A stretch of DNA of 64,000 nucleotides from Pseudomonadota bacterium (GTDB taxonomy: Bacteria > Pseudomonadota > Gammaproteobacteria > Burkholderiales > Ferrovaceae). Positions 22,581 to 57,858 of this stretch are shown piece by piece (position 1 is the stretch's first letter; each line of letters opens with the position of its first letter). Under the pieces are notes generated by a model, which was not told where the DNA came from, searched no databases, and was given only the letters and a program-made list of their open reading frames with translations. The stretch is taken from assembly GCA_021796835.1 (NCBI GenBank), contig JAKABO010000009.1, positions 1 through 64,000 of the forward strand, in the 5' to 3' direction. A program made the position numbers and the translations under genes.

Positions 22581-23654
22581 ATGTCCCGTCCTACCTCCAT
22601 TCATGTCAACCTGGAACGTCTGCGCGAAAACTTTCGAAGCGCACGACGCCTTCATGGCGGGGCCCTGCTGGCGGTGGTCAAGGCCAACGCCTACGGGCAT
22701 GGCGCGGTGGTCTGCGCCCGGGCCCTGGCCCCCCAGGCAGAGGGGTTTGCGGTGGCGACCCTGGAAGAGGGTGCGGAACTGCGCACGGCAGGCATCACGC
22801 AGCCCATCGTCCTGCTGGAAGGCATTTTTTCTTCCACGGATCTGGGCCAGGTTCAGCATCAGGCACTGACGGCCGTTCTGCATCAACCCTGGCAGGTGCA
22901 ACTCCTGCTGGGGCAGGCAGTTCCCCCGGCAGGCGGGTTCTGGCTCAAGTTCGACAGCGGGATGCACCGTCTGGGTCTGGATGCATCCGAACTGCGTTGG
23001 GCGGTGGACCAGTTGCGGCGCAAATTTCCCGGGGTCACGGTCACGGTCATGACCCATTTTGCCCATGCCGACGGGGTGAATCCCGGAGCGCTGGATCCGG
23101 CCCTGACCCTTTTTCGTCAGGCGATCCAGGGGCTTTCGGTCCGAACCAGCCTGGCCAATTCCGGGGCCATTCTGGGGTATCCGGAAGCGCGGGGCGATTG
23201 GGGTCGCCCCGGACTGATGCTCTATGGTCTCGATCCTGCCGCTCCCGGACAGCCGGTGCGTGCCGGGCTTCGTCCCGTCATGTCCCTGCGTTCCCGGATC
23301 ATGGTCGAGCGCTGGATCAAACCGGGCGACAGCGTGGGCTATGGCGGACTGTTTCAGGCGCGTCGCCCGGTCCGCATCGGGGTCATCCCCTGCGGCTATG
23401 CCGATGGTTATCCCCGTACGGCCCCCCAGGGGACATGGGTGAGCGCCGGGGAGGATTGCGTGCCCCTGGCGGGACGGGTGTCCATGGACATGCTCACCGT
23501 GGACCTGACCGATGCCCCCCGGGTGACGGTGGGCACGGAAGTGGAACTGTGGGGAGATCGGGTTTCGGTCAGTACCCTGGCCCACTGTTGCGGCACGCTG
23601 GCCTACGAACTGGTGTGCGGGGTGCAACGGGCAGCGCGTTGCACGGTGGGTTGA
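22581..23654 (+). CDS. alr: Alanine racemase
   Basis: 357 residues, standard length. PLP-dependent enzyme making D-alanine for peptidoglycan. The PLP lysine lies in AVVKANAYGHG (about residue 34), and the second catalytic base Tyr is in GDSVGYGGLF. 'SMDMLTVDLT' and the C-terminal 'LAYELVCGVQ' are also conserved. In many betaproteobacteria alr is followed by radA; here the Trb-type secretion operon follows after 76 bp. Confidence 0.95.
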   Translation: MSRPTSIHVNLERLRENFRSARRLHGGALLAVVKANAYGHGAVVCARALAPQAEGFAVATLEEGAELRTAGITQPIVLLEGIFSSTDLGQVQHQALTAVLHQPWQVQLLLGQAVPPAGGFWLKFDSGMHRLGLDASELRWAVDQLRRKFPGVTVTVMTHFAHADGVNPGALDPALTLFRQAIQGLSVRTSLANSGAILGYPEARGDWGRPGLMLYGLDPAAPGQPVRAGLRPVMSLRSRIMVERWIKPGDSVGYGGLFQARRPVRIGVIPCGYADGYPRTAPQGTWVSAGEDCVPLAGRVSMDMLTVDLTDAPRVTVGTEVELWGDRVSVSTLAHCCGTLAYELVCGVQRAARCTVG

Positions 23655-23730: not shown

Positions 23731-24681
23731 ATGTGGAACGAACCTTCCTATCTCGAATCCCTGCTGGATGACGCCCTGGGCGACCTCTCCCGGTTGCTGG
23801 ACGAGGCGGACGTCCGCGAGGTGATGGTGAATGCCCCGGATGACGTCTGGGTGGAACGGGCCGGGCGCCTGGAGCCGGTTTCCCTGAACTTCAGCGCAGC
23901 AGCCACGCGCACCGTGATCCAGGTGCTGGCGGCCCTGTCCGCCCGCACGGCGGGTTTCGAACAGGCGCGCCCCCTGCTCGATCTGGGTTTCCGCGATTGG
24001 CGGGTTTCTGCCGTGCTTCCCCCGGTGGCGGTACGGGGTCCCACGCTCTGCCTGCGCAAGCATGGAGGAAGAATTTTTCCTCTCCAGCAGTTTACGGACG
24101 GGGCTTCCGTCGGCAGCGAAACGATTCCCCCGGCTTTCGACGCCCCCCATCGCCCCGACCTCCATGACCAACTGCTGCACTGGATCCGGGACAGAAAAAA
24201 TCTGCTGGTCAGCGGCGGGACCGGAACCGGAAAAACCGCCCTGCTCAATGCCCTGATTGCCCAGATTCCGGAAACCCAACGCCTGGTGGTGATCGAGGAC
24301 ACACGGGAACTCCGGGTGGAGCACCCCAACCGGGTGATTTTCGAGGCCCATCCTGCCGCGGGCGTCACCCTGCGCGATCTGGTGCGCCAGGCGCTGCGTT
24401 TTCGCCCGGACCGGATCATCGTCGGCGAAGTGCGGGGGGCGGAGGCCTTCGATCTGTTACAGGCGATGAATACGGGGCATGAGGGGTGTCTGGGCACGCT
24501 CCATGCCAACAGCGCCGGGGAAGCCCTGCATCGTCTCGTTCAACTGGTCTTGCAGGCGGGCATGGGCTGGACGGAAGAGTCGATTGCACGACAGGTTGGG
24601 CGCACCATCGGGGGCATCATCCAGTTGGGGCGGGTGGAGGGACGGCGGCGGGTCGATCACATTCAACGAGTGGGAGGGTAG
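23731..24681 (+). CDS. trbB: TrbB/VirB11-type secretion ATPase
   Basis: 316 residues. A hexameric traffic ATPase with Walker A SGGTGTGKTALLNAL, Asp box 'VVIEDTRELR', Walker B 'RIIVGEVRGAEA' and His box 'GHEGCLGTLHANSA'. These are intact, so ATPase activity is expected. It powers pilus or DNA-transfer functions at the cytoplasmic face of type IV secretion systems. First gene of a compact operon (B-C-D-E-J-L-unknown). No relaxase or coupling protein gene is seen in the window. Confidence 0.92.
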   Translation: MWNEPSYLESLLDDALGDLSRLLDEADVREVMVNAPDDVWVERAGRLEPVSLNFSAAATRTVIQVLAALSARTAGFEQARPLLDLGFRDWRVSAVLPPVAVRGPTLCLRKHGGRIFPLQQFTDGASVGSETIPPAFDAPHRPDLHDQLLHWIRDRKNLLVSGGTGTGKTALLNALIAQIPETQRLVVIEDTRELRVEHPNRVIFEAHPAAGVTLRDLVRQALRFRPDRIIVGEVRGAEAFDLLQAMNTGHEGCLGTLHANSAGEALHRLVQLVLQAGMGWTEESIARQVGRTIGGIIQLGRVEGRRRVDHIQRVGG

Positions 24682-24685
24682 GCGC

Positions 24686-25036
24686 ATGGGCAATATCGGG
24701 ATTACCCCCAAGGGGGCGAAAAATCGGCGGGTGAGGGGGTATGTTCAGGGGGTGTTCTGCGGGCTTCTGTGCGCGGCTCCCCTGGCCATGGCGATGTATA
24801 CCCCGATGCCCTGGGAGGGCCCCATCTGCATGGTGGCCAGCAGTTTGAAAGGGCAGGTGGCGGTGGTGCTGTCGGTCGTGGCCACCATCATGATCGGGAT
24901 CATGTTCATGTATGCGGAAACGGGCGGCGTGGTGGCGCGCATTGCCAGCTGGTTGCTGGGCATGTCCTGTGCGCTCTCCGTGGTAAGCATCATCACGGCC
25001 CTGTTCCCCGGGGTGGTGATGCCCGGATGTCTGTGA
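24686..25036 (+). CDS. trbC: TrbC/VirB2-type pilin
   Basis: 116 residues from ATG 24686, 4 nt after trbB. A long basic N-terminus and signal-like segment (GVFCGLLCAAPLAMA) precede a mature part with two membrane helices (VAVVLSVVATIMIGIMFMY and IASWLLGMSCALSVVSIITAL), the layout of VirB2/TrbC pilins. 'PWEGPICM' before the first helix is typical. The TGA overlaps the ATG of trbD. Family assignment rests on the topology, motif and position in the operon. Confidence 0.82.
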   Translation: MGNIGITPKGAKNRRVRGYVQGVFCGLLCAAPLAMAMYTPMPWEGPICMVASSLKGQVAVVLSVVATIMIGIMFMYAETGGVVARIASWLLGMSCALSVVSIITALFPGVVMPGCL

Positions 25037-25353
25037 TGAGCACGCCTCGCCGTCGGTCCCCCTGCCACCGGTGTTTGTGGGAACCCCTGCTGATCGGGGG
25101 GGTGGAAAAACCGTTTGCCATCGTCAACGCCACCCTGGCCATTGCGCTGGTGGGAGATCTGCATTTTTACGGGTGGTTGCTCGTGGCGGTGCTTTTTCAT
25201 GGCGTGATGCGCCACCTGACGGCCAGTGATCCCTTCCTGCGCCAGATCTATGCCCGTTACAACTGGCAGGCCGACCGGTATGTGCCCTGGCCCCCGGTGT
25301 CCGCCCTTCGGGGAAGGCGCCCGGCGGGTTGGGGCAGGGGCCTGTCATGTTGA
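25036..25353 (+). CDS. trbD: TrbD/VirB3-type inner-membrane protein
   Basis: 105 residues. The start ATG overlaps the trbC stop (TGATG); ATG 25027 is an in-frame alternative. Family features: 'LWEPLLIGGVEKPFAIVNATL' near the N-terminus (given in part), a hydrophobic hairpin (LAIALVGDLHFYGWLLVAVL) and 'DPFLRQIYARYNWQADRYVPW'. VirB3/TrbD binds the VirB4 ATPase at the inner membrane. The 3' end overlaps trbE by 7 nt. Confidence 0.85.
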   Translation: MSTPRRRSPCHRCLWEPLLIGGVEKPFAIVNATLAIALVGDLHFYGWLLVAVLFHGVMRHLTASDPFLRQIYARYNWQADRYVPWPPVSALRGRRPAGWGRGLSC

Positions 25354-27803
25354 ACGTGGGGTCTCCCCCCGGAAAAAACCGGGAGCGGGGCCTGGCCGAG
25401 ATCCTGCCCTGGCTGATCCAGCTTTCCCCCGGGGTGGTTCTGAACAAGGACGGCGGGTTCCTGGCCTGTTTTTCCCTGCGCGGGTTATGCGCGGAAAATC
25501 ATGACCCCCAGGTCCTCGATCAGGCCGTGGAGGATCTGGAGCAGGCCCTCCACGGCCTGGAAGGTCGCTGTACCCTCTGGTGCACGGTGCTGCGGCGCCC
25601 GGTGGTGCCGTTTCAGCCCGGTTGCTTCAGCCACGAGGCCAGCCGGTGCATCGACAGGATTTACGGGGAAGGACTGGCCCGCCACCGGCATCTGGCGAAT
25701 CGTCACTACCTGTCCGTGTTGTGGGCCGCCCCGAAAACGGGGGCATCGCTCCTGCACAAGGCGTACCTCTGGGTCCGAAGTCTGGGGTATGGTCCGGTCC
25801 GAACCCGGGCCTGGGAACAGGTGCAACAGCGCCAGAAACAGTTCGAGGAAATCCTCACCCAGTTCATGCAGGCGGTTCCGGCACTGGGTGCGCGGCGTCT
25901 GGAAGGCACGGCCCTGCTGCAGTTTCTGCAGGAAATGTGCAGTCCTTCCGCGCCCGGCGACCTGCCCCTGGCGTTCCCGCAGGGGGCTTATCTGGATGGG
26001 GCCCTGGGGGAGGACGAGGTGGTGGTGGGCGCGGACCATCTGCGCTGCACCGGCATCCACGGCGTGCGCTATGGTGCCGCCCTGACCCTCAAGGCCTGGC
26101 CCGATCACACGTTTCCGGGCATGTTGGACAGTCTTCTGGAAGTGCCGGCCAGTCTGACCCTGTCCCAGGTTTTTCGTCTGGTGGACCAGGCCCAGGCCCA
26201 GCGCCACATCAAGAATGTCCAGCGGTTCCACCTCAATCTCCAGAAATCGCTCTTCAGTTACGTGCGGGAAGCCCTGTCCGGCGAGGAGAGTGTGGTGCGC
26301 GATACCGGGCGGGCGGTTTCGGCCGCCGAGGCGCGCCAGGCACTGACGGATATGACGGCCCAACGCCGTCTCTACGGCTATGTGAATGTGACCCTCCTGG
26401 TCTGGAGTCCCACCCTCGACACGCTGGACGAGGCCGTCACCCAGGTGGCCCAGGCCATTCGGGGGGAAGGATTTCTGGTTCTGCGCGAGCGGCTCCATCT
26501 CAATTCGGCCTGGTCCGGCACCTTGCCCGGACAGTGGGGCGAACTGGTGCGCTGGCATTTCATCAGCAGCAGCAACTGGGCGGATCTGTTCGCCTTGCGG
26601 ACCGTGCCCGGCGGACAACGGGAGAATCCCTATCTGACCCGGCAGCGGGGGGTGTTTTCTCCCGCCCTGACGGTATTCCGCACGCGCTTCGGCAGTCCCT
26701 ATGCGTTCAACCTGCACCAGCAGGACCTGGCCCATACGTTCGTGGTGGGACCTTCCCGGGCGGGCAAGTCGGTCTGGGTCAACTTCGTGATCAGCCAGTT
26801 CCAGAGGTATGCACCGGTGCATACGGTCATCTTCGACAAGGATCGCTCCTGTCGCATTCCTGTCCTGCTGCAGGGCGGGCGCTGTTTCGAGGTGGCCCGG
26901 CAGGGGATGAGGCTGAACCCCCTGAAAGAGATCCGGGATCCGGCGGAGCGGCTCTGGTTGCTGGGCTGGCTGGAGGGGTTGCTGGGTGCGCGCGGGCATT
27001 CCCTGAGTTCCCCGGAACAACAGGGGCTGCGCCAGGCACTGGAAGACCTCAGCCTCCGGGCCCCGGAACTGCATCGTCTGCGCAGTCTCGCCGGGCTTCT
27101 TCCCCGTCTTCTGGTGGAGGAACTGGAGCCCTGGCTGGGGGGCGGGCAATGGGGCGGGTATTTCGACCATGCGGAGGACGACCTGCAGTGGGCCTCCCTG
27201 ACCTGCTTCGAGATGGGGGAAGTGTTGCGTCATCCCGTGCTGGCCCGCGCCTTTCTGGATTATGCCTTTCACCGCATCGATCAGCGCCTCGCCCAGCATT
27301 CGGGCATTCCCACCCTGATCTACATCGAGGAAGCCTGGTTCATGCTGGCAGACCCGTTTTTTGCCGGGCGCATCCGTGACTGGCTGAAAACCCTGCCCAA
27401 AAAAATGGGCTTTGTCATTCTGGCCACCCAGTCTCTGGACGACCTGTCCGGATCGCAGATTTTTGCGACCCTGGCCGACAATGTCCCGACCCGCATCTTC
27501 CTGCCCAATGCCCAGGCCCGGGTGCACCGGGAACTGTATCGGAACCAGTTCGGCTTGCTCGAGAGTCAGATCGACCTGTTGGCCCGGGCTCGCCCCAAGC
27601 GTCATTACCTGCTTCACACCCCCGGGGAATGTGTTCTGCTCGAGGCAACCTTCGAAGCGGACCTGCTGGCGTGGCTACGTTCCGATGTCCAGGCCCAGCG
27701 TCTCTTCGACCGGCATGTACGGATCGGGGCGCGGGGAGTGGAAGGGCGGGAAGCGTATTTTCAGGCGCTGGCACAGGAAGAAGAGGGAGTGAAGAATTCA
27801 TGA
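25347..27803 (+). CDS. trbE: TrbE/VirB4-type conjugative transfer ATPase
   Basis: 818 residues from ATG 25347, which overlaps the trbD stop. The N-terminal VirB4 domain is followed by an ATPase with Walker A GPSRAGKSVWVNF (about residue 467), Walker B TLIYIEEAWFML and 'ILATQSLDDL', all as in TrbE/VirB4. It is the largest component and energises pilus assembly and substrate transfer. Length is normal and the frame is unbroken, arguing against decay. Its stop overlaps the trbJ start. Confidence 0.93.
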   Translation: MLNVGSPPGKNRERGLAEILPWLIQLSPGVVLNKDGGFLACFSLRGLCAENHDPQVLDQAVEDLEQALHGLEGRCTLWCTVLRRPVVPFQPGCFSHEASRCIDRIYGEGLARHRHLANRHYLSVLWAAPKTGASLLHKAYLWVRSLGYGPVRTRAWEQVQQRQKQFEEILTQFMQAVPALGARRLEGTALLQFLQEMCSPSAPGDLPLAFPQGAYLDGALGEDEVVVGADHLRCTGIHGVRYGAALTLKAWPDHTFPGMLDSLLEVPASLTLSQVFRLVDQAQAQRHIKNVQRFHLNLQKSLFSYVREALSGEESVVRDTGRAVSAAEARQALTDMTAQRRLYGYVNVTLLVWSPTLDTLDEAVTQVAQAIRGEGFLVLRERLHLNSAWSGTLPGQWGELVRWHFISSSNWADLFALRTVPGGQRENPYLTRQRGVFSPALTVFRTRFGSPYAFNLHQQDLAHTFVVGPSRAGKSVWVNFVISQFQRYAPVHTVIFDKDRSCRIPVLLQGGRCFEVARQGMRLNPLKEIRDPAERLWLLGWLEGLLGARGHSLSSPEQQGLRQALEDLSLRAPELHRLRSLAGLLPRLLVEELEPWLGGGQWGGYFDHAEDDLQWASLTCFEMGEVLRHPVLARAFLDYAFHRIDQRLAQHSGIPTLIYIEEAWFMLADPFFAGRIRDWLKTLPKKMGFVILATQSLDDLSGSQIFATLADNVPTRIFLPNAQARVHRELYRNQFGLLESQIDLLARARPKRHYLLHTPGECVLLEATFEADLLAWLRSDVQAQRLFDRHVRIGARGVEGREAYFQALAQEEEGVKNS

Positions 27804-28579
27804 GGGGATGGATGACGGGAATGGTGGGGCTGCTCTGGACGGGCTCGCTCCAGGCCATGGGGATGGTGGTCTACGACCCCATCAACCATATCGAAACGGC
27901 TCTGACCGCCGCCAACGCCGTTCAGCAAACGGCCCAGCAGGTCCAGGCGTACCTGATACAACTGCAGCAATTCGGGGCGCAAATGCGGAATCTGCAAACC
28001 CTGCCGCAGGCCGTGCTGGCGCAGGTCCTGCTGCCCTATACCCAGCAGAGCGCGATGGCCCAGACCCTGGTCCAGACCCTGGCTGTCACGGGGCAGCAGA
28101 TCACGGCTCTGCAACAGACCCTGCTCGATCAGTCCCGCCAGATGAACGCGCTCCAGTTGACGCCACAGGACTATCTGGCGCGCGAAATCCAGTGGTCCCA
28201 GACCCAGGGGAACGGACTGGGGGCAACCCTGCAGGGCGAAGTGGGGGTCCTGCAGGGACTGTCCGGTTCCTATGCCCAACTGCAGCAATTGCAGGGGCAG
28301 ATCGGCACGACGGGGGGGATGCAGCAGAGCCTCCAGACCGCGAATCAGCACCTCAACCTGCTGGCGGGACAGAATGCCCAGTTGATGGGCCTGATCGCCA
28401 GCGCGCAGGCCAATGTTTCGGCCCAGCAGCAACAGGACGCCCTGGTCAATACGGCGGCGGCACAGACGGTACAGCGACGTCTGCAGAATGACCACCTCAA
28501 GATCCAGCAATGGCACGATCAGTTGCAACAGACTGAAAATGGCCAGGGATGGGGCATCCTGACGGCACCGGGACCCTGA
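27800..28579 (+). CDS. trbJ: TrbJ/VirB5-type protein
   Basis: 259 residues; the ATG at 27800 overlaps the trbE stop (ATGA). A signal-peptide-like N-terminus (MRGWMTGMVGLLWTGSLQAMG) is followed by 'VYDPINHIETALTAANAVQQT', the usual TrbJ opening (here given in part), and a Gln-rich helical and coiled-coil body. VirB5/TrbJ proteins are exported and sit at the pilus tip or base. RP4 has trbF, G, H and I between trbE and trbJ; all four are absent here. Confidence 0.85.
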   Translation: MRGWMTGMVGLLWTGSLQAMGMVVYDPINHIETALTAANAVQQTAQQVQAYLIQLQQFGAQMRNLQTLPQAVLAQVLLPYTQQSAMAQTLVQTLAVTGQQITALQQTLLDQSRQMNALQLTPQDYLAREIQWSQTQGNGLGATLQGEVGVLQGLSGSYAQLQQLQGQIGTTGGMQQSLQTANQHLNLLAGQNAQLMGLIASAQANVSAQQQQDALVNTAAAQTVQRRLQNDHLKIQQWHDQLQQTENGQGWGILTAPGP

Positions 28580-28585
28580 CGTACC

Positions 28586-29596
28586 ATGTTGTTCCTCGAC
28601 CCGTCCCTGATCGATCAGATGGCCACGGCCCTTCTGGAGGGCGGACGTCAGTTGCACGTCCGGATGAGCGGCGTGGCAGACAGCCTGTACGGTTCCCTGC
28701 TGGTTCTGACCTTTTCCTGGTCGACGGTGAACCTGTTGATCGAGTCGAGTGTGGGCGAGAGTTTGGGGGCCGTGCTGACCCACCTGATCCGCTTCATCTT
28801 TCTGGCGGGATTCACGCGCTGGTTCCTGGATTCCTATGATTTTGTCTTCTACGACGGGGTGTACCAGGGGTGCGTGACGCTCACCAGCGCCATCGCCGGA
28901 CCGCAGGGACAGAGTCAGGGATTTGCCACGGCCTGGAGCGTGTTTGCCGACCTCATCGGGACGATCTGGGACGGGATGGTGTCCAGTCCCGGGCGCTATC
29001 TGGCGGGCGCCACCCCGTTGTCGAGCGCTTTCTGGGCGGCCCTGGGTGGCTGGGTGATCACCATGGCCTTTCTGTTCGTGGCCCTCTGTGTGTTTACCGT
29101 GGCCCTGACCCTGGTGGCGGTGATTCATATCATGGGGAATGCCCTGGCAGGTCTGGCGCTGGCCCTCGGCCCGTTTTTCATTCCCTGGCTGTTGTGGGAG
29201 AGTACCCGCGAGTTATGCCTGGGGTGGATCCGCTTCCTTTCCATCGCCTGTTTTTACCAGGTGGTGGCGGTGACGGTCCTGGTCATGGCCAAACCGGTGT
29301 TTGTCCTGATCCAGCAATGGATGATGGCGCAGTCCGGGGTCTGGACGCATGCCTCCCCGGCGGACAGCATGGCACTGGCGCTGCTTCTGGTGGTCACCGC
29401 CAGCATCATTGCCCACCTCATGAGTCACGTCCCCCAGATCGCGGCATCCCTGATTGGGCACGGGCGGGTGGATACCGGTTTCGCCGGGCAGACCCAGCGC
29501 TTCGTGCAGACCCGGATGGACCGGGCCAATGACTGGCTGGCCCGGCAGATCAAGAGTTATGGCAAGGCGGAAGTGGAGAAGACCCGGTCTTCATGA
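28586..29596 (+). CDS. trbL: TrbL/VirB6-type polytopic membrane protein
   Basis: 336 residues with about six to seven hydrophobic helices, for example VITMAFLFVALCVFTVALTL and LALALGPFFIPWLL. The VirB6/TrbL pattern is a periplasmic N-terminal loop, a helix bundle and a cytoplasmic C-terminus rich in charged residues (QTRMDRANDW...). It forms part of the inner-membrane channel. It starts 6 nt after trbJ, and its stop overlaps the next small gene. Confidence 0.88.
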   Translation: MLFLDPSLIDQMATALLEGGRQLHVRMSGVADSLYGSLLVLTFSWSTVNLLIESSVGESLGAVLTHLIRFIFLAGFTRWFLDSYDFVFYDGVYQGCVTLTSAIAGPQGQSQGFATAWSVFADLIGTIWDGMVSSPGRYLAGATPLSSAFWAALGGWVITMAFLFVALCVFTVALTLVAVIHIMGNALAGLALALGPFFIPWLLWESTRELCLGWIRFLSIACFYQVVAVTVLVMAKPVFVLIQQWMMAQSGVWTHASPADSMALALLLVVTASIIAHLMSHVPQIAASLIGHGRVDTGFAGQTQRFVQTRMDRANDWLARQIKSYGKAEVEKTRSS

Positions 29597-29853
29597 AACT
29601 GCGGCCCTACCTGCTGACGGACCGGGAATGGAGATCCCTGTGGATGGGGCTGCTCGAGCGGGCCGACTGGCCTGTGGAGGCCCGGCGCGATTATCCCGTG
29701 CCGGACGGGCTGCGCCAGGGTTTCCGGGGCCATTGTGCCTGGGTGCTGGCGATGGAAGCCTACGACCATCCCCTGCGCACGGTGTTCGGGTTGGCGCTGG
29801 CGCTGGGCGAGGGCCTGCGCTGGGGCGGCGAAATGGTGGGGCGCTGGTTTTAG
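29593..29853 (+). CDS. Unknown 86-residue protein, last gene of the trb-like operon
   Basis: The ATG at 29593 overlaps the trbL stop, so it should be translated with the operon. The 86 residues are Trp/Arg-rich (REWRSLWMGLLERADWPVEAR at the start, shown in part) and end in a moderately hydrophobic, Gly-rich helix (FGLALALGEGLRWGGEMVGRWF region). No signal peptide and no known domain is recognised; size and place recall the small TrbK/TrbM-like accessory slots but no similarity is claimed. The last 4 nt overlap the convergent waaF gene. Confidence 0.6.
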   Translation: MKLRPYLLTDREWRSLWMGLLERADWPVEARRDYPVPDGLRQGFRGHCAWVLAMEAYDHPLRTVFGLALALGEGLRWGGEMVGRWF

Positions 29854-30854
29854 GGGGGGGCGGGGAAAGCCGCCAGGACCTGTTCCGGGTCCAGAAGATT
29901 GAGGCAGTTCAGGTGCCCCAGGGGACAGGTGCGCTGGAAACAGGGGCTGCAGGGCAATTCCAGACGCAGGACCCGGGCCTGTGCGCTGAGGGGAGGGGTA
30001 AAGCGTGGGCTGGAAGAGCCAAACAGGGCCACCAGGGGGCGTTCCAGGGCGGCAGCGACGTGCATCAGGCCGGAGTCGTTGGTCACCACCCGTTGTGCCA
30101 GGGACATCAGGTCCACGGCTTCCTCCAGGGCGGTGATGCCGCAGAGGTTCTGCAGGGGGGCGGAAACCTGCTGGGCGATCTCTTCGCCCACCGGACGATC
30201 CCTGGCGGAACCCAGAATCCATATTTGCCAGCCCTGTGCGATCCACTGTTGGGCAACCTGGGCAAAATGGGCGGTGGGCCAACGCTTGGCCGGGCCATAT
30301 TCGGCACCGGGACAGAGGATGGCGATGGGCTGGGCACGGGACAGTTGCAGTCGTTCCAGGGTCCGGGACTGGTTCTCCAGATCGATGACCAGACGCGGAG
30401 AGGGCAGCGGTTCGGGGCATCGGCCCTGCGGATCGGCCAGGGACAGAAAGCGCTGCACCATGAGCGGCAGACGTTCGGGATCGAGGCGGCGGATATCGTT
30501 CAGCAACCAGCGGCGTTGTTCTCCGATGAATCCGGTGCGCTGCGGAATCCTGGCAAACCAGGGGACCAGCGCCGATTTCCAGGAATTGGGCAGAACGATG
30601 GCCTGATCAAAGCCCGAACGGCGTAACGTGCGTCCCAATCGCCAACGCCCGGGCAGGTCCAGGCGACCATGGGGAAAGGGATGGTCGAGGAGGGCATCCA
30701 CCTCGGGCATGCGCTGCAGTACCCCATGGGTCCAGCGCGGTCCCATCACCGTCAGGTGCACGTCCGGGGCGGCCGCGCGCAGGGCGGAGAAAAGAGGTTG
30801 AGCCAGGACGGCGTCGCCCACCCAGGCGGCGCCGACGATCAGGATCCGCTTCAA
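29850..30854 (-). CDS. waaF: LPS heptosyltransferase (WaaF type)
   Basis: 334 residues, GT9 family. 'ILIVGAAWVGDAVLAQPLFSAL' (here in part) at the N-terminus, 'PGAEYGPAKRWP' for the donor-binding loop and 'NDSGLMHVAAALERPLVALFGSSSP' at the C-terminal site are standard for ADP-heptose:LPS heptosyltransferase II. It adds the second heptose to the inner core. The start overlaps the stop of the zinc-finger gene, so it is the third gene of ilvE-zinc finger-waaF. Confidence 0.93.
   Translation of the reverse strand: MKRILIVGAAWVGDAVLAQPLFSALRAAAPDVHLTVMGPRWTHGVLQRMPEVDALLDHPFPHGRLDLPGRWRLGRTLRRSGFDQAIVLPNSWKSALVPWFARIPQRTGFIGEQRRWLLNDIRRLDPERLPLMVQRFLSLADPQGRCPEPLPSPRLVIDLENQSRTLERLQLSRAQPIAILCPGAEYGPAKRWPTAHFAQVAQQWIAQGWQIWILGSARDRPVGEEIAQQVSAPLQNLCGITALEEAVDLMSLAQRVVTNDSGLMHVAAALERPLVALFGSSSPRFTPPLSAQARVLRLELPCSPCFQRTCPLGHLNCLNLLDPEQVLAAFPAPP

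Positions 30855-57781: not shown

Positions 57782-57858
<77 letters not shown>

Follow-up and report, generated by a model that had tools for sequence, protein, structure and literature searches.

To our knowledge, the ComB system of Helicobacter pylori is the only studied type IV secretion system (T4SS) that imports DNA. It belongs to the MPF_T class, is encoded at three loci and has no VirD4 (PMC13395361). A scattered T4SS kept by vertical inheritance is also known in kind from Rickettsia, whose rvh genes form an "archipelago" of islets (PMC2653234), and the T4SSs related to that of the gonococcal genetic island (GGI) contain an FlhC/Yaf-TraI(MOBH)-TraD-small membrane protein module (PMC4207684). 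Ullrich et al. (2016) found an almost complete set of VirB genes in Ferrovum genomes, which they read as a conjugation signature, and reported VirD4 to be missing from F. myxofaciens (PMC4886054, PMC4725956). Here we describe a Trb-type T4SS of the Ferrovaceae, starting from a stretch of 64,000 nucleotides (nt) of contig JAKABO010000009.1 (positions 1 to 64,000, hereafter the window). The source genome (G000) is that of a Ferrovum species, with 2.15 Mb in 64 contigs and 99.5% completeness.

The window carries an operon of seven open reading frames (ORFs) on the forward strand (positions 23731-29853), which have no internal stops and are spaced, or overlap, by no more than 7 nt (locus 1, Table 1). 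A preliminary description of this DNA had recognised seven tightly packed co-directional genes, homologues of trbB, trbC, trbD, trbE, trbJ and trbL and an unassigned gene encoding 86 amino acids (aa), with no frameshift and with Walker motifs in both ATPases. The profile matches and the coordinates agree with this. It had also suggested that the operon may be a reduced inner-membrane machine without a periplasmic and outer-membrane core, as trbF, trbG and trbI were missing. They are indeed missing from the window locus, but not from the genome. Its single VirB8 match and its single VirB10 match adjoin on contig C38 with VirB9/TrbG in between (locus 2, C38:13118-16011), and trbF/G/I co-occur with trbE across the family, so that the reduced machine had to be given up. 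Homologues of VirB2, 3, 4, 5, 6, 8, 9, 10 and 11 (trbC, D, E, J, L, F, G, I and B, respectively) are all present in the source genome. Locus 3, on contig C5, consists of flhD-flhC, a degenerate MobH gene (mobH'), traD and a small ORF. The FlhD-like and FlhC-like genes lie upstream of traD (Pfam, 1.7e-11 and 7.9e-30, respectively), as does mobH', which matches the C-terminal part of MobH alone (NCBIfam, 1.6e-10). The SXT-type TraD on C5 is a coupling protein as expected of a conjugative element, and the earlier statement that none was recognised is thereby corrected. As for a relaxase, the genome has no match to PF07514 or PF03432, the only relaxase families searched. A second, far stronger FlhC match on contig C7 is presumably the flagellar one, and for this reason the C5 flhDC pair is regarded as a separate regulator. 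SXT/IncC elements employ activators of the FlhDC sort, SetCD/AcaCD. Alignment of the regions upstream of loci 1-3 gave no convincing common operator. MPF_T genes usually lie in one operon or in neighbouring operons, whereas here three loci occupy separate contigs, in the source genome and in relatives with long contigs. In G004 the three loci lie on contigs as long as 385, 120 and 94 kb, which excludes an assembly artefact as the cause of the split. Almost certainly, the three loci constitute one complete MPF_T (VirB/Trb-type) T4SS that is split, vertically kept and not plasmid-borne. The preliminary description had counted a split system elsewhere in the genome against domestication; trbF/G/I and the coupling protein of such a system were found, an intact relaxase was not.

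The Ferrovaceae system shares with ComB its class, its chromosomal location and a conserved three-locus split. It differs in keeping VirB5, which ComB lacks together with VirD4, and, in most genera, TraD; DNA uptake is a putative function of the Ferrovaceae system. Vertical inheritance and scattered islets are common to it and rvh, but rvh belongs to intracellular bacteria, lacks VirB5, has several duplicated genes and a highly conserved VirD4. The GGI module resembles locus 3. However, the GGI has a transport part of the MPF_F type and cannot secrete DNA without its TraI and TraD, whereas the Ferrovaceae have an MPF_T system and a dead-looking relaxase. Although T4SSs of this kind are known, the Ferrovaceae variant is new: in their consulted sections, the Ferrovum papers (PMC4886054, PMC4725956) contain no description of the split, the conservation, the dead relaxase or the constraint on the pilin.

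TrbE orthologues with 45-92% identity occur in nearly all sampled Ferrovaceae genera, and TrbI parallels them. Among named organisms, Ferrovum myxofaciens P3G has the best match (92%), and the close matches come without exception from Ferrovum or Ferrovaceae-type genomes. The exception is genus g3, the trb genes of which are about 27-31% identical and of a different type. The order trbB-C-D-E-J-L-orf86 beside alr and waaF/ilvE, which the preliminary description had suggested looking for in relatives, recurs in Ferrovum, g2, g4, g5, g7 and g8, with one flank hidden by contig ends in some genomes. In several other genera xdhC/mocA-type genes intervene before waaF, and alr is inverted in G004 and G008. 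Locus 2 likewise recurs with a constant order, trbF-G-I, in different genera, and it adjoins a gene for a 220-aa membrane protein in most of the genomes with locus 1. The locus 3 order metG/mrp-flhDC-mobH'-traD is found in Ferrovum (G001, G002, G004), G014 and G024, and in G008 the locus lies near mrp in reversed orientation. The P3G genome (G003) holds TraD at locus 3 on its contig C19, which corrects the published absence of VirD4 from F. myxofaciens. The loci thus lie among housekeeping genes whose identity is constant across genera, and not at variable insertion sites; no mobility genes were seen at the loci, and no whole-genome integrase search was made. The distances of trbE+L+B track those of the flanking ilvE+waaF (Spearman 0.89, 78 pairs), with similar, though not identical, trees. 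GC content and GC content at third codon positions of the operon match those of alr, waaF and ilvE, as had been noted earlier. A genomic island was ruled out, since composition and neighbours fit the chromosomal surroundings. In the basal-looking genus g6 a single contig carries mrp-flhDC-mobH'-traD-trbBCDEJL followed by xdhC, and in G017 also by waaF further along. As the coupling-protein locus still adjoins trbBCDEJL in g6, the gene order suggests a single insertion between mrp and xdhC/waaF that was later broken between traD and trbB. A further, unrelated trb system with about 31% TrbE identity is present in P3G (G003:C6 and C30) and in one relative (G006:C54), and PF03432 relaxases occur in P3G and G004 on contigs other than those of the T4SS loci. 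We take these to be separate mobile elements. No viral copies of the system were found.

The ratios of nonsynonymous to synonymous substitution rates (dN/dS) were obtained from three close pairs; flhD, with 14 codons in two of the pairs, was ignored. The values of 0.05-0.23 for the trb genes and orf86 and of 0.12-0.16 for traD are comparable to those of alr, waaF and leuC. All genes of the system are under purifying selection, and the ORFs of the relatives are not broken, which answers the earlier call for a gene-by-gene estimate. With order and place conserved across genera, dN/dS of 0.05-0.26 and intact frames, the earlier preference for a domesticated rather than a decaying system is upheld. 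Natural deletions are also available. In G010 (99% complete), mrp-dcd-flhDC borders on an unrelated transporter gene, both mobH' and traD having been deleted; no other TraD match was found, and trbBCDEJL and trbFGI are intact despite this loss. In G013, flhDC, mobH' and traD are lost at that site and trbFGI is kept. The missing trbE of G013 was considered as a true loss and found uninformative, as the contig ends inside trbL. On account of the G010 and G013 deletions, the relaxase and the coupling protein are regarded as dispensable, while the pilus and channel genes are retained. The g3 genomes have alr-xdhC-waaF without trb genes in between. They retain flhDC beside mrp-dcd without such a T4SS (L201 9049-10000, L202 9101-10037), and therefore the FlhDC pair must have another target there. 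Co-loss of the T4SS with flagella was ruled out, since G010, which has no flagellar-type FlhC, keeps the T4SS.

Among plasmids, the closest TrbE matches are on those of the MOBH + MPF_T type (39-40%), the nearest being on an Azonexus hydrophilus plasmid (40%). These plasmids (pTK9001, the A. hydrophilus NCP973 plasmid and the pMOL28/pHG1-type Cupriavidus megaplasmids) share MobH-TraD, trbBCDEJL and trbFGI with the Ferrovaceae. The Azonexus plasmid contains, in a single run, FlhC-mobH-traD-orf-DUF4400-trbBCDEJL-orf-orf-ATPase-trbFGI-TraH-TcpQ-PilN, and so has FlhC upstream as in the Ferrovaceae. The order is mobH-traD-DUF4400-trbB-(two trbC)-D-E-J-L-F-G-I in pTK9001 of Thioalkalivibrio, and trbBCDEJL-traI-traD with divergent trbFGI in pMOL28. 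Because the Azonexus plasmid, pTK9001 and pMOL28 share this gene set, the ancestor is, judging from gene content, a conjugative plasmid-type element of the MOBH + MPF_T kind. The Ferrovaceae system differs from these relatives, which are plasmid-borne, have type IVb pilus genes nearby and, in pTK9001, an intact MobH; it is chromosomal, lies at three loci, has a degenerate MobH and no mobility genes were seen at it. The preliminary description had expected trbF, trbG, trbH and trbI between trbE and trbJ, as in RP4. This template was dropped as belonging to the wrong lineage: in pTK9001 and the Azonexus plasmid, F-G-I come after B-C-D-E-J-L. trbFGI is thus expected 3' of trbL, and nothing was excised between trbE and trbJ. 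The Azonexus plasmid (L187) is classed as non-mobilizable by PLSDB/MOB-suite despite its full MobH-TraD-Trb set. In another betaproteobacterial family, f13 (L056, L115, L121, L114), a similar flhDC-(degenerate mobH)-traD-trbBCDEJL arrangement has conserved flanks, including an enoyl-CoA-hydratase-like gene, and f13 may be a second family in which a copy has settled.

In the alignment of MobH proteins, the (H)HH...RH and HD motifs are kept in IncC TraI and in MobH of pCAR1 and pTK9001. None of the ten Ferrovaceae MobH' proteins aligned has the HHH, RH and HD residues of an active relaxase. In addition, these proteins are reduced in length and evolve faster, with dN/dS of 0.18-0.26 in close pairs. 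Most of the motif residues are likewise gone from the MobH proteins of Azonexus, Aromatoleum evansii, pMOL28 and Robbsia, and motif-poor MobH/TraI proteins are encoded on plasmids (L187 19896-21755, Azonexus plasmid; L205 22291-23532, pMOL28; L117 3326-5098; L207 18247-19566). A whole branch of "MOBH" may work without the HD mechanism. Since pMOL28 is reported to be conjugative, although below its derivative pMOL50 (PMC2864759), the absence of the HD motif is not in itself proof that transfer has been lost.

The mature TrbC pilin (76 aa, starting MPWE) of the window is 93-100% identical to those of g2, g5, g7, g8 and other Ferrovum, 83% to that of G010 and 75-79% to those of g6. About half of the fourfold sites differ in inter-genus trbC pairs. 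The median identity between genera is 80% for the TrbC match, 57% for TrbE and 50% for TrbB, and TraD (39%) and MobH' (33%) are the least conserved parts. Outside the Ferrovaceae, TrbC (46%) and TrbE (44%) are similar in this respect. In RP4, a peptide bond closes TrbC into a ring. Nearly all pilins of the MOBH + MPF_T clade have a pair of cysteines, the first close to where helix 1 starts and the second close to the C-terminus (window 24686-25036; L088-L122; L187, L205-L207), and the aligned part of the 9vf4 TrbC chain has none. The paired cysteines could replace the peptide-bond cyclisation of RP4 and yield a disulfide-closed pilin. The AlphaFold model of TrbC has the helices of a VirB2-type pilin (mean predicted local distance difference test score 66, predicted TM-score 0.32); at these low scores it is too weak to probe such a disulfide, and the cysteine distances in it were not used.

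The last gene of the operon, orf86, gave no convincing match to Pfam and NCBIfam profiles. It sits immediately 3' of trbL in most Ferrovaceae, and a weak homologue occupies the equivalent position in Aromatoleum evansii. A lone tRNA-Pro (ggg) gene in the window (57782-57858) lies away from the operon.

Table 1. Genes of the three T4SS loci in the source genome and the flanking genes of locus 1
Gene	Locus	Position	Strand	Product or description	Match or motif
alr	1, flank	22581..23654	+	adjoins the operon upstream in most genera	
trbB	1	23731..24681	+	VirB11-type ATPase, 316 aa	Pfam T2SSE 2.8e-45; NCBIfam TrbB_P 2.5e-63; Walker A GGTGTGKT
trbC	1	24686..25036	+	VirB2-type major pilin, precursor of 116 aa	Pfam TrbC 1.2e-9; TrbC/VirB2 chain 9vf4, E 2e-8
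trbD	1	25036..25353	+	VirB3	Pfam VirB3 3.3e-6
trbE	1	25347..27803	+	VirB4 ATPase, 818 aa	NCBIfam TrbE 1.3e-125; Walker A GPSRAGKS
trbJ	1	27800..28579	+	VirB5-like minor pilin	NCBIfam TrbJ_Ti 3.5e-12
trbL	1	28586..29596	+	VirB6	Pfam TrbL 1.9e-9
orf86	1	29593..29853	+	small protein, hydrophobic segment at the C-terminus	
waaF	1, flank	29850..30854	-	convergent downstream neighbour, 4-nt overlap with orf86	
trbF	2	C38:13118-13819		VirB8	
trbG	2	C38 from 13820		VirB9	
trbI	2	C38:14632-16011		VirB10	
traD	3	C5:14875-16548		TraD-type coupling protein	SXT_TraD 3.4e-74; Walker A kept

We propose that the system is a domesticated, pilus-forming T4SS. Taken as a whole, down to the pilus function, this explanation is slightly favoured in our judgement; that the pilus function would be independent of the relaxase and the coupling protein is, considered separately, probable. 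The composition, the split, the history read from synteny, the selection, the motif loss and the deletions are shown by the data; that a pilus is assembled, that flhDC regulates the system and what its job is are inferred. TrbE and TrbB would drive the assembly of the TrbC pilus through the TrbF-G-I-J-L channel, and FlhDC, as a SetCD/AcaCD-like activator, would control the T4SS. The lineages examined keep VirB2-6 and VirB8-11, the set that assembles the Agrobacterium T-pilus. The retained work would need the pilus and the channel and would not depend on an active relaxase or, in at least one lineage, on a coupling protein. As a tentative first guess, with attachment a close second, this work could be DNA uptake: captured DNA would be taken up and handed to ComEC, as in ComB. 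ComEC is encoded in the source genome (C32:89817-90572, 5.3e-51) and was found in 7 of the 10 genomes tested, all 7 of which carry the T4SS; it is absent from two g3 genomes without the T4SS and from G013. Group 2 Ferrovum has also lost flagella and nif (PMC4886054). Several observations weigh against uptake or against the wider proposal. The ComEC pattern is weak, since it amounts to essentially a single loss event (g3) and to two independent losses at most, and G013 has trbFGI without ComEC. Unlike ComB, which has no coupling protein, most genera including that of the source genome have TraD, G010 being without it. Both mobH' and traD are open and selected (dN/dS 0.12-0.26) in most lineages, and since traD stays open under selection, the coupling protein does something in most of them. 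The MobH of pMOL28 has no HD motif, yet this plasmid is reported to conjugate. The conservation of the pilin is equally compatible with any pilus function, and the dN/dS base is narrow, with few Ferrovum genomes close enough.

A surface pilus for attachment or biofilm (streamers), with a T4SS that builds the TrbC pilus and moves no substrate, is possible, if somewhat doubtful. The extreme conservation of the mature pilin would suit it, as would the retention of VirB2-6 and VirB8-11 with a coupling protein that is dispensable in G010. The massive streamers of F. myxofaciens and the lack of the system in the group 2-like genus g3 point in the same direction (PMC4886054). However, exopolysaccharide/PEP-CTERM has already been credited for the streamers, exposed adhesive pilins tend to vary rather than freeze, and TraD is retained in most lineages. 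A further reading is contact-dependent delivery or release of protein toxins or single-stranded DNA via TraD, in which MobH' would serve as an adaptor for substrates and not as a nickase. TraD has its Walker A motif and is under purifying selection, mobH' is open, though divergent, in every genus with an intact locus 3, and GGI-like systems secrete single-stranded DNA through the FlhC-TraI-TraD module (PMC4207684). We nevertheless consider delivery unlikely: no other parts are as poorly conserved as TraD and MobH', G010 has lost both and G013 has lost both together with flhDC while the trb genes stayed, and no effector genes were recognised adjoining the loci. Ongoing conjugation, in which the dispersed parts mobilise the chromosome or plasmids in trans with a relaxase of unrecognised type, is quite improbable. 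It is consistent with the reported transfer of pMOL28, whose MobH has no HD motif, and with the coupling protein of most genomes, but neither of the two relaxase families searched yielded an intact member, mobH' is reduced beyond its plasmid versions, the chromosomal neighbours of the loci are fixed and G010 has deleted both relaxase and coupling protein. Hardly tenable, and already largely refuted, is the reading that the T4SS is the remnant of an element integrated long ago and is slowly decaying. The partial losses in G010 and G013 and the empty alr-xdhC-waaF site of g3 would agree with decay, whereas trb genes intact in at least 6 genera at 45-60% identity, their low dN/dS and a near-invariant pilin would not.

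The domesticated pilus-forming T4SS might mean that a conjugation T4SS was turned, independently and for a second time, into a machine for importing DNA (or for making a pilus), with a disulfide-closed, frozen TrbC and a non-catalytic accessory MobH, in free-living acidophilic iron oxidisers; in this full form the proposal is doubtful. The Ferrovaceae system, its natural deletions and the intact plasmid relatives together would form a stepwise series for the domestication of a conjugation machine, and they offer a place to test the activity of a T4SS once transfer is lost. They also revise the published view of the Ferrovum T4SS genes as conjugation signatures without VirD4.

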